This document shows, in pieces, positions 3,070 to 16,746 of a DNA stretch of 36,490 nucleotides; position 1 is the stretch's first letter; each line of letters begins with the position of its first letter. A program made the translations under genes and the position numbers. The notes beneath the pieces were generated by a model. The model was not told where the DNA came from. It did no database searches and was given only the letters and a program-made list of their open reading frames with translations. The DNA lies in NCBI GenBank assembly GCA_007570995.1, contig RKSG01000075.1, forward strand, positions 1 to 36,490, in the 5' to 3' direction. Origin of the DNA: Nitrospirales bacterium (GTDB taxonomy: Bacteria; Nitrospirota; Nitrospiria; Nitrospirales; UBA8639).

Positions 3070-3215
3070 TCAAACACCCTGTTGTCAGATATCGTACATG
3101 GCCCGGATCATTGTCTCTCACACGCACGGCGGGGGAAGACTGTACCTGCATTCAGGAACGCTCGTCAAAATTTTCGCCTCTCACGCACGGGCTGCCACCT
3201 TGCATGGAACCCTCA

Positions 3216-3445
3216 CCCTGGATTCCTGCGTGCGCAGGCATGACGGCAAGATGCCCCTCCACACGGACCGCCGCCGCGCACAGAACCATAGCCCTGGATC
3301 CCGGCTTGCGCAGGCATGACGGAAGGAGGCCCCTCACACAAACTGCCGCCGCGCACCAAAAAACCCTCACCCTGGATCCCTGCGTGCGCAGGAATGACGG
3401 AAGGATGCTCCTCCACAAGGGCTGCCGCCGCGCGCGAAACCATAG
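3216..3445. repeat. Tandem array of three REP-like units, period about 77 bp
   Basis: Three copies start with CCCTGGAT at 3216, 3292 and 3370. Each carries a palindrome of the CCTGCG/CGCAGG type followed by ATGACGG, and each is followed by a diverged spacer ending in a CTGCCGCCGCGC-like motif, giving spacings of 76 and 78 bases. The array occupies the gap between the divergent proA-like gene and rpsB. The remaining part of the gap (3446-3676) must hold the rpsB promoter and leader, but I could not pick a convincing -35/-10 pair. All three reading directions through it give only shadow frames. Confidence 0.8.
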
Positions 3446-8815: not shown

Positions 8816-9346
8816 TTATTCATCGGAGTCCAGTGCTCCATGCCAGTAGAGATAATCGCGCCAGCTTCCCGGAGCGTTCCGAATGCCGGTCATGAGGGCA
8901 AGGGCGGGATTCCAGCGTGGCTTTTCCGGCTGTTTCATTAAACGCATACGTGCTTCTTCCGGCGTTCTCCCGCTCTTTTGATTATTGCAACGCCAGCACG
9001 CCGTCACGATGTTGCTCCAGGTTTTCTTCCCACCGCTGGCAATCGGCACGACATGATCAAAGGTCAGCTCTTCAGAGGCAAACTTCTTACAACAGTACTG
9101 GCACCTGTATTTGTCGCGAGTAAAAATGTTAACCCGCGAAAACTTGACCGACCGATGCGTGGATTTCAGCCTGACAACGTTCCGGAGCCGCATGACCGAG
9201 GGGAGCTTCACACGAATCGTGATCCCTCGAATTTCCCGGTCATAGCATTCGAGGACCTCAACCTTCCCCTGATACAGCAGAGTTACAGCCTTCTGCCATT
9301 GCACGACACGCAGCGGCTCATACGTCGCGTTTAACAACAATGTCAT
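8816..9346 (-). CDS. HNH endonuclease family protein
   Basis: A 176-residue protein. It opens with MTLLLNATYEPLRVVQWQKA, typical of a widespread HNH family, and its C-terminal half carries CQYC, then LTFDHVVPIASGG, then WSNIVTACWRCNNQKSGRT. These are the two zinc-knuckle CxxC pairs and the H-N-H catalytic elements. The ATG at 9346 is preceded by a GGGGG run eight bases upstream. A longer reading from 9406 adds residues outside the family. No adjacent methylase or phage gene is visible, so its role as a chromosomal nuclease is unknown. Confidence 0.9.
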   Translation of the reverse strand: MTLLLNATYEPLRVVQWQKAVTLLYQGKVEVLECYDREIRGITIRVKLPSVMRLRNVVRLKSTHRSVKFSRVNIFTRDKYRCQYCCKKFASEELTFDHVVPIASGGKKTWSNIVTACWRCNNQKSGRTPEEARMRLMKQPEKPRWNPALALMTGIRNAPGSWRDYLYWHGALDSDE

Positions 9347-9500
9347 CAGCATGCCCCCCGAGAGCTGTGCATGAATCCCGGCGGATTTTGAGCGTGTATA
9401 TAGCACCGGGAACGCCCGCGACGCAACACCCGCTGTTCATCACTTGCGGCAGCTACCACACACTGGTACGCTCCGGTTCCTCTGAGTTCAGGGGGTCGTA

Positions 9501-10917: not shown

Positions 10918-12885
10918 TTACAGAAAGGGCATGTCAAAATTCACGCGAAGCCCGCCGAAGACCGACCGTCCTGGCGTTCCAAAATTCAACACTTCCTCAT
11001 ATTCTTCATCCAACAGATTATCCACACGAACGTAGGCCTGAACCTGCCTGGAAATGTCATAGGTCGCTGCCAGGCCAAACACCGTGAATCCATCAGGCCC
11101 CCTCGTATTATTCAGATCATCAAACTGCGAGCCTACGAAACGGAAATCCAGCGTCATAGTCAGGGGAGCAACCGGCTGATACAACACACTGACAGTGGCC
11201 TGATCCGCAGGTCTCCGGATCAACCTCCTGGTCGTGTCCAGGTCACGTGCCAGGGTCACGGTATAACGCCATTGAAGTTCCAGTCGTTTTGTCCAGGGAC
11301 GATCCCGCATCACCACCACATCGGCCGACAATTCCCATCCCTGGGATTTGGCGGACGCGGCATTGGCAGGACAAAAATTGGGGCCGTACGTCCCGGTTCC
11401 ACATATCGCTGCACTCCGAATCGTCTGAATGAGCTGGCGATACCGATTCCAGAAGTAGCCTGCACCAATAGTCACTCGTTCATCAAAAAAGCTCTGGTCA
11501 ACGCCCACGTCGAAACTCCGGCTTTTTTCCGGCCGCAAATCAGGATTGCCAAAGTCAGGGAAAAACAATTCGTTGATGTTTGGTGCCCGAAATCCTGTCG
11601 CATAACTGCTGCGAATTTTCGCCTCGCCAAAGACAGTGGAGAACACATACCCTCCGGTCACGCGATACGTGGTCGCATTGCCAAAGGTATTGAAGGCATC
11701 ATGCCGCAGCCCTGCCGTGGCAAAGACGCGATCCCACAGGTTGAATTGTATCTGACCGAAGCCGGCATGGGACGCATTGATCTTCGCTGGCGAAGACGTC
11801 TGCTGTGCGTCACGAAACTGATAGCCCACCATCAGCGTGACGTACCGGTTGAGTCGGAAGTCATGTTGACTCTCGACCCTGTTTGTCAGCTCACGGCCCT
11901 CACTCGGGCTTCCAAAGGGTACCCCCACCACACCAGTTTGCGTATTGCGCTGCAACGTGCCCGGATGGTTCACGGAGGTGGACTGGGCACGAGACAGCGT
12001 CAGCACATGGGTCCACCAGCTGGTCAGCGGTTGCCGCCATGTGCCGCTGAACACAAAACGTCGGGTGTCCGTTTTGGCCTTATACACGTCGGCCGGGCCA
12101 AAAGAGTTGTCAATATTCACCGAACCATTCGACCACCTGACCGTAAAGTCGAACCGGCCATCGGCGGGAAGGGCCGTGCCAATCCTGCCCGAACCCTGCC
12201 AGTTCCGGTACGAATCGCGTTCGGAAGCCCCTCTTCGATAATTAATCGCGGAAATGTTCGAGGTATCCCAGCGGGAGAGTACGAGAGAAAAATCAACCTG
12301 GCCCTTCTGCCCGGACAGGCTCCCCCCTTCCCGTATCGTGTTAAAGGCTCCGTATTCAAAAAACCCACCCACCTTCGGCCGCCCGTAGCCTCGTTTCGTG
12401 GTAATGGAAATGACACCACCCATCGCGTCTGAGCCCCATACGGTACTCTGTGCCCCCCGAACGATTTCAATTTTGGCAATGTTGTCCACCGTTAAATCGC
12501 TGAAGTCAAAAATCCCCCCGCGCGCGTTGTTCACAATGGCACCATCAATCAGGACCAGCGTCTGACTGGAACTCCCGCCCCGGATCCGCACCGTGGCGAG
12601 CCCGCCCGGGCCGCCGTTCTGCGTGACCACCATGCCCTGCGACAACCGCAGTGCTTCCACCACCGTCTTGATCTGTCTGCGTTCCAGGTCTTCCGCGGTC
12701 CACACTTCGACCGCACTGGTGGTCTTGCGAAGGGGAACCTCGGTTTTGGTGGCGCTCACGACCACCTGTTCCAGTGTCTGAACATCCGAATCATCGGAAG
12801 ACGCCTGACCGAAGGCCCATGACGGGAACAACGGAATACCCAGCAGAACAGCCAGACAGACAACCTGTAACGGATGACACAACAT
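10918..12885 (-). CDS. btuB: TonB-dependent outer-membrane receptor, BtuB type (cobalamin)
   Basis: A 655-residue receptor. Signal peptide at residues 1-26 (hydrophobic VVCLAVLLGIPLFPSWAFG), then a TonB-box-like VVVSATKTE, the plug domain (TVRIRGGSSSQTLVLIDGA, IEIVRGAQSTVWGSDAMGG) and a beta-barrel ending in FDMPFL. The ATG at 12885 is chosen because GGGGAGG lies six bases upstream and the signal peptide begins there; a longer frame to 12930 would start inside the riboswitch region. The upstream cobalamin riboswitch and the neighbouring btuFCD-like genes support cobalamin as substrate. It imports ligand across the outer membrane using TonB energy; no tonB gene is in the window. Confidence 0.93.
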   Translation of the reverse strand: MLCHPLQVVCLAVLLGIPLFPSWAFGQASSDDSDVQTLEQVVVSATKTEVPLRKTTSAVEVWTAEDLERRQIKTVVEALRLSQGMVVTQNGGPGGLATVRIRGGSSSQTLVLIDGAIVNNARGGIFDFSDLTVDNIAKIEIVRGAQSTVWGSDAMGGVISITTKRGYGRPKVGGFFEYGAFNTIREGGSLSGQKGQVDFSLVLSRWDTSNISAINYRRGASERDSYRNWQGSGRIGTALPADGRFDFTVRWSNGSVNIDNSFGPADVYKAKTDTRRFVFSGTWRQPLTSWWTHVLTLSRAQSTSVNHPGTLQRNTQTGVVGVPFGSPSEGRELTNRVESQHDFRLNRYVTLMVGYQFRDAQQTSSPAKINASHAGFGQIQFNLWDRVFATAGLRHDAFNTFGNATTYRVTGGYVFSTVFGEAKIRSSYATGFRAPNINELFFPDFGNPDLRPEKSRSFDVGVDQSFFDERVTIGAGYFWNRYRQLIQTIRSAAICGTGTYGPNFCPANAASAKSQGWELSADVVVMRDRPWTKRLELQWRYTVTLARDLDTTRRLIRRPADQATVSVLYQPVAPLTMTLDFRFVGSQFDDLNNTRGPDGFTVFGLAATYDISRQVQAYVRVDNLLDEEYEEVLNFGTPGRSVFGGLRVNFDMPFL

Positions 12886-12912: not shown

Positions 12913-12929
12913 TGGGTTGAGAAGTGACA

Positions 12930-13171
12930 ACGGCAGCTGGGTCTCCTGACTTGCGGATCATGGCTCCGCTGCACCTTCCCGGCAGCTCCGCGATCCCGAG
13001 CCATCGGCTCGCGTATCGCGTCGTCGTCCAGTGGTATGCCCGCAGCGTGACTCCCCGCTTACAGTGGCGGCACCGTGATGGAGTTGCACCATCTTCCCCG
13101 ACACATGCGTTTCACACCCCCCACCCCTGGATGCCTGCGTGCGCAGGCATGACGGAGGGGGGGCATGCCGT
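12930..13171 (-). ncRNA. Cobalamin riboswitch controlling btuB
   Basis: Read on the minus strand, the region carries the ordered cobalamin aptamer elements: GGGGAAG followed by GGTGCAACTCC, then CCGCCACTGTAA (around 13060-13072), CACTGG, GGGAAGGTG, and finally CAAGTCAGGAGACC before the P1 3' strand. P1 forms between ACGGCA (complement of 13166-13171) and TGCCGT (complement of 12930-12935). Between P1 and the core lies a C-rich arm, a REP-like palindrome and a G-rich arm, which together would make a long P2 extension. The gene immediately downstream is btuB. Cobalamin binding is expected to lower btuB expression. Confidence 0.93.
13108..13163. repeat. REP-like palindrome inside the btuB riboswitch P2 region
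   Basis: ATGCCTGCG (13131-13139) and CGCAGGCAT (13142-13150) form a perfect palindrome. It is flanked by CGTTTCACACCCCCCACCCC on the left and GACGGAGGGGGGGC on the right, so outer C-rich and G-rich arms can pair as well. The same flank (CGTTTCA, then C-rich) precedes the copy at 16243, which marks the boundary of the repeat unit. Confidence 0.85.
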
Positions 13172-13273
13172 AATAGTTCCTCGATCCCTTCCTTTCGTGA
13201 CTGGTTGAACCGTATGAAGGGCCACAGCCCTTCGCATGATACTTCCCTCGGCCGGAACGCGGCACAAGGGGCC

Positions 13274-15213: not shown

Positions 15214-16242
15214 TCAGTCCTCCTGAAAAAGCTCCGGATGAATCAGCCTGGCCAGTGCCGCGAGGCCCTGCACGAGCCGCGGCCCAGGTCTGTTGACGAT
15301 GATCCGGGGTATAAAATGCACCCGGTTATGTTTCACTGCCGTGAGCGTGGACCATTGCGTCCACTGTTCCGTCCCGGACCCGGCGGACGCATCATCGTCC
15401 CGTGGAGGCAACAGAAGAATTTCGGGGTCTTTCTGCAGCACCACCTCCATGCTCAAACGGGGCCAGGCTGTGCCGGCGTCCTTGGCGATATTGTCCGCAC
15501 CGGCCAGCTCAAGAATCTGATGCACAAAACTTCCCCTGGCCACGCTGATAAACGGCCGCTCAGACAACACGTACAGGACACGAGGTCTGGACACGGACCG
15601 GGTCTTCTCGACAATGGCCTGAACCTTCGCACGCATGGCATGGACCATCGCATTGGCTTCCGGAACGCGTCGGAACATCCGTCCCAGCGTCTGCATGTGG
15701 GCATACACATGTTCCAGCGAGGCGGTGTTCATGATGAACAACGGAATTTTCAGGCGCCGTAACGTCTCCAGCGCATCGTTCCGAACCGCATCCACAGCCA
15801 GCACCAGATCCGGCTCAAGGGCCAGGATGGCTTCGATATTCGGGCGCATATCGCCCACCTTCGCCCTGGTCCTGGCCTCCGGCGGATAATCGCACCATTG
15901 CGTCACACCGATGACCGCGTCGCCCGCGCCAATGGCAAACACCATCTCCGTAATGCTGGGCATGAGAGAAATCACACGTGTCGGAGGATCCGACAGGTAC
16001 AGTTTCCGGCCGGTATCATCCACAAACGTCCGCGTGGCCACGTTGGCCATAAAGGGCATCCCTGTCAGAATTCCCTGTTGACGACGTTTCATGATCGAGG
16101 AGTGGTCGGAGAAACCGAACAGAGGGGTACAGGCCAGCAGCACCAGAACGAGACCGGTCACGCCAACGTGAACGGGGTGACACGGCCGCCGCTTCTCACG
16201 CGCATCCCGGCACGGCAGGAACAGCCAACACCCCGCTACCAT
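15214..16242 (-). CDS. btuF: Periplasmic cobalamin-binding protein, BtuF type
   Basis: A 342-residue substrate-binding protein of the Fe/B12 periplasmic class. The mature part opens with RVISLMPSITEMVFAIGAGD and contains VIGVTQWCDYPPEA and RPGPRLVQGLAALARLIHPE, typical of BtuF-like proteins. I place the start at the ATG at 16242, giving a charged n-region and a hydrophobic VGVTGLVLVLLACTPLFGF signal segment. The longer frame to 16377 would translate a REP palindrome and a transcription terminator and is rejected. Its stop is three bases before the btuC GTG. It is the first gene of the btuFCD operon, controlled by the riboswitch at 16442-16722. Confidence 0.9.
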   Translation of the reverse strand: MVAGCWLFLPCRDAREKRRPCHPVHVGVTGLVLVLLACTPLFGFSDHSSIMKRRQQGILTGMPFMANVATRTFVDDTGRKLYLSDPPTRVISLMPSITEMVFAIGAGDAVIGVTQWCDYPPEARTRAKVGDMRPNIEAILALEPDLVLAVDAVRNDALETLRRLKIPLFIMNTASLEHVYAHMQTLGRMFRRVPEANAMVHAMRAKVQAIVEKTRSVSRPRVLYVLSERPFISVARGSFVHQILELAGADNIAKDAGTAWPRLSMEVVLQKDPEILLLPPRDDDASAGSGTEQWTQWSTLTAVKHNRVHFIPRIIVNRPGPRLVQGLAALARLIHPELFQED

Positions 16243-16300
16243 ACGTTTCACGCCCCCCACCCCTGGATTCCTGCGTTCGCAGGAATGACAGAGGGGGGGC
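16243..16300. repeat. REP-like palindrome in the btuF leader
   Basis: ATTCCTGCG (16267-16275) and CGCAGGAAT (16278-16286) with a two-base loop. Its flanks are ACGTTTCACGCCCCCCACCCC and GACAGAGGGGGGGC, the same as for the copy at 13108. It sits between the terminator and the btuF start codon, so every read-through btuF transcript should carry this hairpin just upstream of its start. Confidence 0.85.
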
Positions 16301-16302
16301 AT

Positions 16303-16339
16303 AAAAAAAATCCCCAAGGCCTCAACGACCTTGAGGATT
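16303..16339 (-). terminator. Rho-independent terminator, expression platform of the btuF riboswitch
   Basis: On the minus strand an eleven-pair stem, AATCCTCAAGG with CCTTGGGGATT (one G-U pair), encloses a nine-base loop and is followed by a run of eight T residues (complement of 16303-16310). It lies after the aptamer and before btuF. The bases ACGACCTT (complement of 16387-16394) can pair with AAGGTCGT (complement of 16325-16332) in the stem and loop, giving a mutually exclusive antiterminator. Confidence 0.88.
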
Positions 16340-16441
16340 GCACCGGCAACTTCATCCTCACCCGTTCCCCAGCCCACGAGGGTTCGAAGGTCGTGAATGC
16401 CGTTCCCGTGTCCTCATGCGAACGGCGGAAACGACATTCCA

Positions 16442-16722
16442 GCACGGGTCGGTCTTCTGGCTTCCGGATCCTAACCTACTTCCCACGCCTTCCCATCACA
16501 ACGTTTCATGCCCCCCTGAATTCCTGCGTTCGCAGGAATGCATGCCCCTGGCGCCCCCCTGGATTCCCGCTCAACTCACTGCGGGAATGACGGAGGGGGG
16601 GCTTTTGACCAGGGGACGGATGGGGAGGCATAACCGAATGTGACAGTGACATATGCGGGGTTCGTGTCCGGTTACAGCGGCGGGACCGCGAAGGATTCGC
16701 ACCTTCTTCCCTGTACCCGTGC
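16442..16722 (-). ncRNA. Cobalamin riboswitch controlling btuFCD
   Basis: On the minus strand: P1 5' strand GCACGGGT (complement of 16715-16722), GGGAAG, GGTGCGAATCC (16693-16703), CCCGCCGCTGTAA (16672-16684), CACTG (16644-16648), GGGAAGG (16488-16494), GCCAGAAGACC (16451-16461) and the P1 3' strand ACCCGTGC (16442-16449), an eight-base perfect pair. All canonical elements are present and in order. The segment between CACTG and GGGAAGG is about 150 bases and contains two REP-like palindromes, making this aptamer much longer than usual. A terminator follows before btuF. Confidence 0.93.
16501..16612. repeat. Two REP-like palindromes inside a variable arm of the btuF riboswitch
   Basis: Copy one: ATTCCTGCG (16520-16528) and CGCAGGAAT (16531-16539). 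Copy two: ATTCCCGC (16563-16570) and GCGGGAAT (16581-16588), with CCCCCCTGG before and GACGGAGGGGGGG after it. The first begins with the ACGTTTCA flank seen in other copies. The second has the longer-loop form found in the array at 20942. Confidence 0.85.
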
Positions 16723-16746
16723 CTCTCATTGTTTCAACGAGGGAGG

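Follow-up and report, generated by a model that had tools for sequence, protein, structure and literature searches.

A CGTC-1-type REP probably inserted at the P2 position of the btuB cobalamin riboswitch in a Nitrospirales bacterium

The leader of a btuB-like gene in a Nitrospirales genome contains a complete REP-like unit within its cobalamin riboswitch, and comparison with the sister genome shows the same site without it. We consider it probable that a 60-nt CGTC-1-type REP inserted in this lineage, that it folds as an arm at the P2 position, and that the predicted B12 binding and btuB control were probably kept. The window, meaning the whole stretch of 36,490 nt analyzed here, is contig C126 of a MAG of 1.98 Mb in 186 contigs (G000; 90% complete). 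G002, its sister genome in the order Nitrospirales, was the reference for the empty-site comparison.

The minus strand of the window carries a B12-uptake operon in the order RS1, btuF-like, btuC-like, ABC ATPase, RS2, btuB-like receptor, and cobalamin adenosyltransferase; a search of the whole genome found RS1 and RS2 to be its sole cobalamin riboswitches. RS1 (16430–16735; RF00174, 75.5 bits) is the leader of the btuF–btuC–ABC ATPase genes, with an intrinsic terminator at 16309–16339. RS2, the btuB leader, extends over 12922–13177 including both P1 strands, based on RF00174 and a genus covariance model (R1): the Rfam Cobalamin model RF00174 matches 13139–12919 with 74.0 bits (gathering threshold 31.5), and R1 matches 13115–12922 with 122.5–122.6 bits. 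The TonB-dependent B12 receptor gene that follows (10918–12885; TIGR01779, E 5e-77, below the curated cut-off) has an open reading frame with an ATG at 12885, the mechanical ORF start being 12930. A minus-strand HNH protein at 8816–9406 has weak similarity to IscB, far under the curated cut-off.

The repeat in RS2 forms a 65-nt BLAST unit (13168–13104, minus strand), which includes both copies of a GCATG direct repeat (13168–13164 and 13108–13104) and reads GCATG-CCCCCCCTC-CGTC-ATGCCTGC-GCAC-GCAGGCAT-CCAG-GGGTGGGGGGTGTGAAAC-GCATG. Its core (13131–13154) consists of the CGTC tag (13154–13151) and the stem ATGCCTGC (13150–13143) paired with GCAGGCAT (13138–13131) around the loop GCAC. The CGTC tag, an 8-bp stem starting with AT, a 4-nt loop, and a CCA tail match the definition published for CGTC-1 REPs (Di Nocera et al. 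2013, PMC3733652), a group without a dedicated transposase to which the Neisseria dRS3 and Rickettsia RPE-6 repeats belong. The unit resembles those repeats in tag, stem, loop, tail, and lack of a transposase, and copies inside genes were already known (PMC3733652). It differs from them in its host, since that paper's list of five phyla with CGTC repeats does not cover the Nitrospirales, and in its long C-rich and G-rich arms, its location in a riboswitch, its empty sites, and its short flanking repeats. A RAYT/Y1 transposase was rejected as the mobilizing enzyme, as none was found in G000 or in G002; the lack of any Y1 transposase (PF01797) match in G000, a MAG that is 90% complete, agrees with the published absence of a dedicated enzyme for CGTC repeats. 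Assignment to the RAYT-mobilized GTAG REP or REPIN class was likewise rejected, given the CGTC tag and the missing Y1 transposase match.

Related sequence turns up by BLAST at 73 places in the genome of 1.98 Mb (about 70 genome copies), and the CGTC tag is present in 53 of the 66 copies read. The palindrome core is common genome-wide, and the full form of the unit with a GTGAAACG end was found in G000 only at 13108 and 16244, a ATGAAACG variant of this end being found in RS1; the confinement of the long form to the B12 operon suggests local spread. The units at 13104–13166 and 16240–16302 share 90% identity over 63 nt, which, together with the Rfam match, bears out the original prediction of a REP-like unit in a btuB cobalamin riboswitch. 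Alone among the 66 copies, the unit in RS2 has both sides of its stem changed from the family consensus, the third pair being G-C instead of T-A; six copies with G/A as the third stem pair retain the mismatch. Three degenerate REP units are clustered at about 3210–3400 of the window.

Where the window has TACGGCATG-unit-GCATGTGTCGGGGAAG, G002 reads CACGGCATGTGTCGGGGAAG, an exact empty site; the net insert is 60 nt, and GCATG is single in G002 and doubled in G000. The hairpin is absent from all 17 relatives of the genus and family, namely 16 that were aligned and G009, whose riboswitch gives a 161-nt match to the genus covariance model without the insert. The riboswitch itself is kept in these related leaders, so that the anticipated comparison came out in favor of a mobile unit placed between P1 and core. 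The occupied site is seen in one genome only, and given the empty site in G002 and the hairpin-free relatives the insertion is, as far as these leaders indicate, one that took place within the G000 lineage only.

Two further REP insertions are found in the same operon: a composite of two palindromes in the P6 extension of RS1 (16501–16630, flanked by TTATG and TTGTG), and a unit directly after the terminator T-run of the RS1 leader (16240–16302, flanked by TATG on both sides). All three insertions are missing from G002, where TATG stands just once at the site matching 16240–16302 and the unit is absent. The flanking repeats, single at the empty site, would fit a target duplication of the MITE type, with GCATG and TATG doubled relative to G002 and the third site (TTATG/TTGTG) imperfect; they would equally fit insertion beside a YATG site by an element with a YATG-like end. 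Other REP copies in G000 also have CATG adjoining the C-run. For the REP loci L005, L013, and L020 no clean empty site was found in G002. At L030, around 1480–1560 (G000:C31:8223–8273), the outer arms of a CGTC REP unit read CCCTGGTC/CCAGGGG, and the unit is close to an ORF start; the ORF at this position is shorter in G002, a likely coding-region insertion in G000.

As had been proposed, the unit can form one long continuous hairpin (13114–13166), in which the C-rich arm pairs with the G-rich arm and the helix then runs unbroken into the REP stem (mean pair probability 0.93); its energy is −41.6 kcal/mol (z −3.6), and 0 of 200 shuffles were equally stable. The relatives have a consensus of a 9-bp P1, a junction of about 4 nt, and a GGG/CCC P3, that is, a fused P1–P3 arm without P2. 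Their P1 is supported by covariation, with 94% of cells paired and changes on both sides in six of eight pairs, compared with at most 57% paired in slid controls. In G000 the strand ACGGCA upstream of the insert (13166–13171) forms six Watson–Crick pairs with UGCCGU (12930–12935), and this P1 appears in the MFE structure. The interval originally predicted for the P2 extension, 12930–13171, coincides exactly with the outer limits of this P1 (13171–13166 with 12935–12930). It should be noted that this P1 is short, with 6 bp compared with 9 in the relatives, and that its pair probabilities are 0.2–0.55 without constraint.

That the hairpin lies where P2 belongs is probable. Running the Rfam Cobalamin model on the minus strand did recover the riboswitch at 13139–12919, but it draws the P1 5′ strand within the repeat with several non-standard pairs, and R1 also chooses P1 strands other than 13171–13166. 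We rejected the Rfam placement, which would disrupt the strong hairpin and require these non-standard pairs; the covariance models probably misplace P1 through penalizing an insert of 60 nt more heavily than six base pairs can repay. Thermodynamics and the homology of the upstream ACGGCA support a REP arm lying within P1, at the P2 position. Riboswitches of the same order have native P2 hairpins UGCCCGAAAGGGCA at the equivalent position. The suggestion that the repeat took the place of an existing P2, or was fitted into one, does not hold: since the relatives have P1, the short junction, and P3 without P2, the repeat is by comparison with them an addition, which would have created a P2-like arm on a fused P1–P3 arm.

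The conserved aptamer core, from GGGGAAG to the B12 box and the 3′ side of P1 (12919–13099), retains all 81 columns that are invariant in the 16 relatives, confirming that it is undamaged. We therefore propose that a unit with a CGTC-1-type REP entered the fused P1–P3 arm, where it would fold by itself into a long hairpin that occupies the P2 position and stacks on a P1 made by strands outside the unit, leaving the P3–P6 binding core free. Such an insertion would be tolerated because many cobalamin riboswitches naturally have an arm at this position, and with a tolerant site, predicted B12 binding and btuB control would probably be kept. The P6 extension of RS1 and the spot behind its terminator may also be places that tolerate extra sequence. 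With the core columns intact and the receptor ORF open, we expect RS2 to be a working or slightly altered switch, and a tolerated insertion with riboswitch function retained is the most likely prediction.

An unlikely alternative places the insert within the 5′ strand of P1, which would now be formed downstream by AACG (13111–13108) with CGUU (12932–12929), leaving the REP hairpin outside, just 5′ of the aptamer. The genus covariance model does align P1 in this way; however, this helix has four contiguous pairs plus one G-C past three mismatches, against six pairs (four of them G-C) upstream, and with the core enforced it is about 3 kcal/mol worse (ensemble energy −118.8 vs. −121.9 kcal/mol with P1 upstream of the insert). 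It also leaves aside the upstream ACGGCA, to which the relatives' ACGACA is homologous. We likewise regard it as unlikely that the riboswitch was impaired or abolished by the insertion, with btuB constitutive or off. The short P1 with its low unconstrained pair probability would agree with such damage, as would the R1 score, which is lower than in the sister (about 122.6 vs. 137.5 bits), the non-standard pairs of the G000 alignment lying mostly in P1; against it stand the complete set of invariant core columns, the open btuB frame, and the fact that, where the 15 relatives other than G002 share 89 invariant columns, G000 keeps 85 and G002 81.

The existence of P2 in other cobalamin riboswitches could also point to an ancestral P2 that was lost in the relatives, but this is extremely improbable given the 17 hairpin-free relatives, the precise empty site in the sister, and the identity of the unit as a copy of a genome-wide repeat. 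An assembly artefact joining repeat copies might be suspected, given the fragmentation of the MAG (186 contigs) and its many copies of this repeat; it is very improbable, as the 60-nt unit is shorter than usual reads, its unique flanks are colinear with G002 on both sides, and the three insertions are separate and clean, with short matching repeats beside them. Beyond the tolerated insertion that we favor, it is conceivable, if distinctly doubtful, that the REP was co-opted, its P2-like arm stabilizing or retuning the btuB aptamer so that a mobile palindrome became a working riboswitch helix. If so, early selection on the RNA would show in the G-C pair that this unit, alone among the 66 copies, has restored in its stem.

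RS2 resembles the RF00174 family in its full-length match, B12 box, intact core, and position before B12 uptake genes, and is unlike the cobalamin riboswitches of its relatives in having a repeat-derived P2-like arm. The metE B12 riboswitch of Mycobacterium tuberculosis has a P2 arm and that of ppe2 a fused P1–P3 arm (PMC11260477); like the P2-like arm of RS2, the metE arm is a peripheral element that issues from the binding pocket, but it is not known to have a mobile-repeat origin. In the open-access literature, we found no report of a REP or transposon insertion in a riboswitch, or of a REP-derived riboswitch helix. A comparable case is the RNase P RNA of cyanobacteria, a functional RNA that takes up short STRR repeats in a variable helix. 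RS2 differs from these in being a riboswitch with a single unit and an empty site in the sister.

The G000 and G002 leaders thus appear to be a before-and-after pair for the gain of a peripheral helix by a riboswitch. The mobility of CGTC REPs was undecided in 2013, a transposase being lacking (PMC3733652); the operon would show such REPs on the move in a recent lineage, their insertions flanked by short repeats. The B12-binding parts are spared at all three places, which makes the structural tolerance of riboswitches testable with natural alleles. An order-wide pattern search for a REP beside a cobalamin core in 236 genomes gave three matches, compared with two in the reversed control, with a pattern that misses RS2 itself because its stem reads GGCATCC. 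At L104 in G019, a riboswitch has 373 nt from core to B12 box, about 260 nt above the usual length, and so has another large insert.
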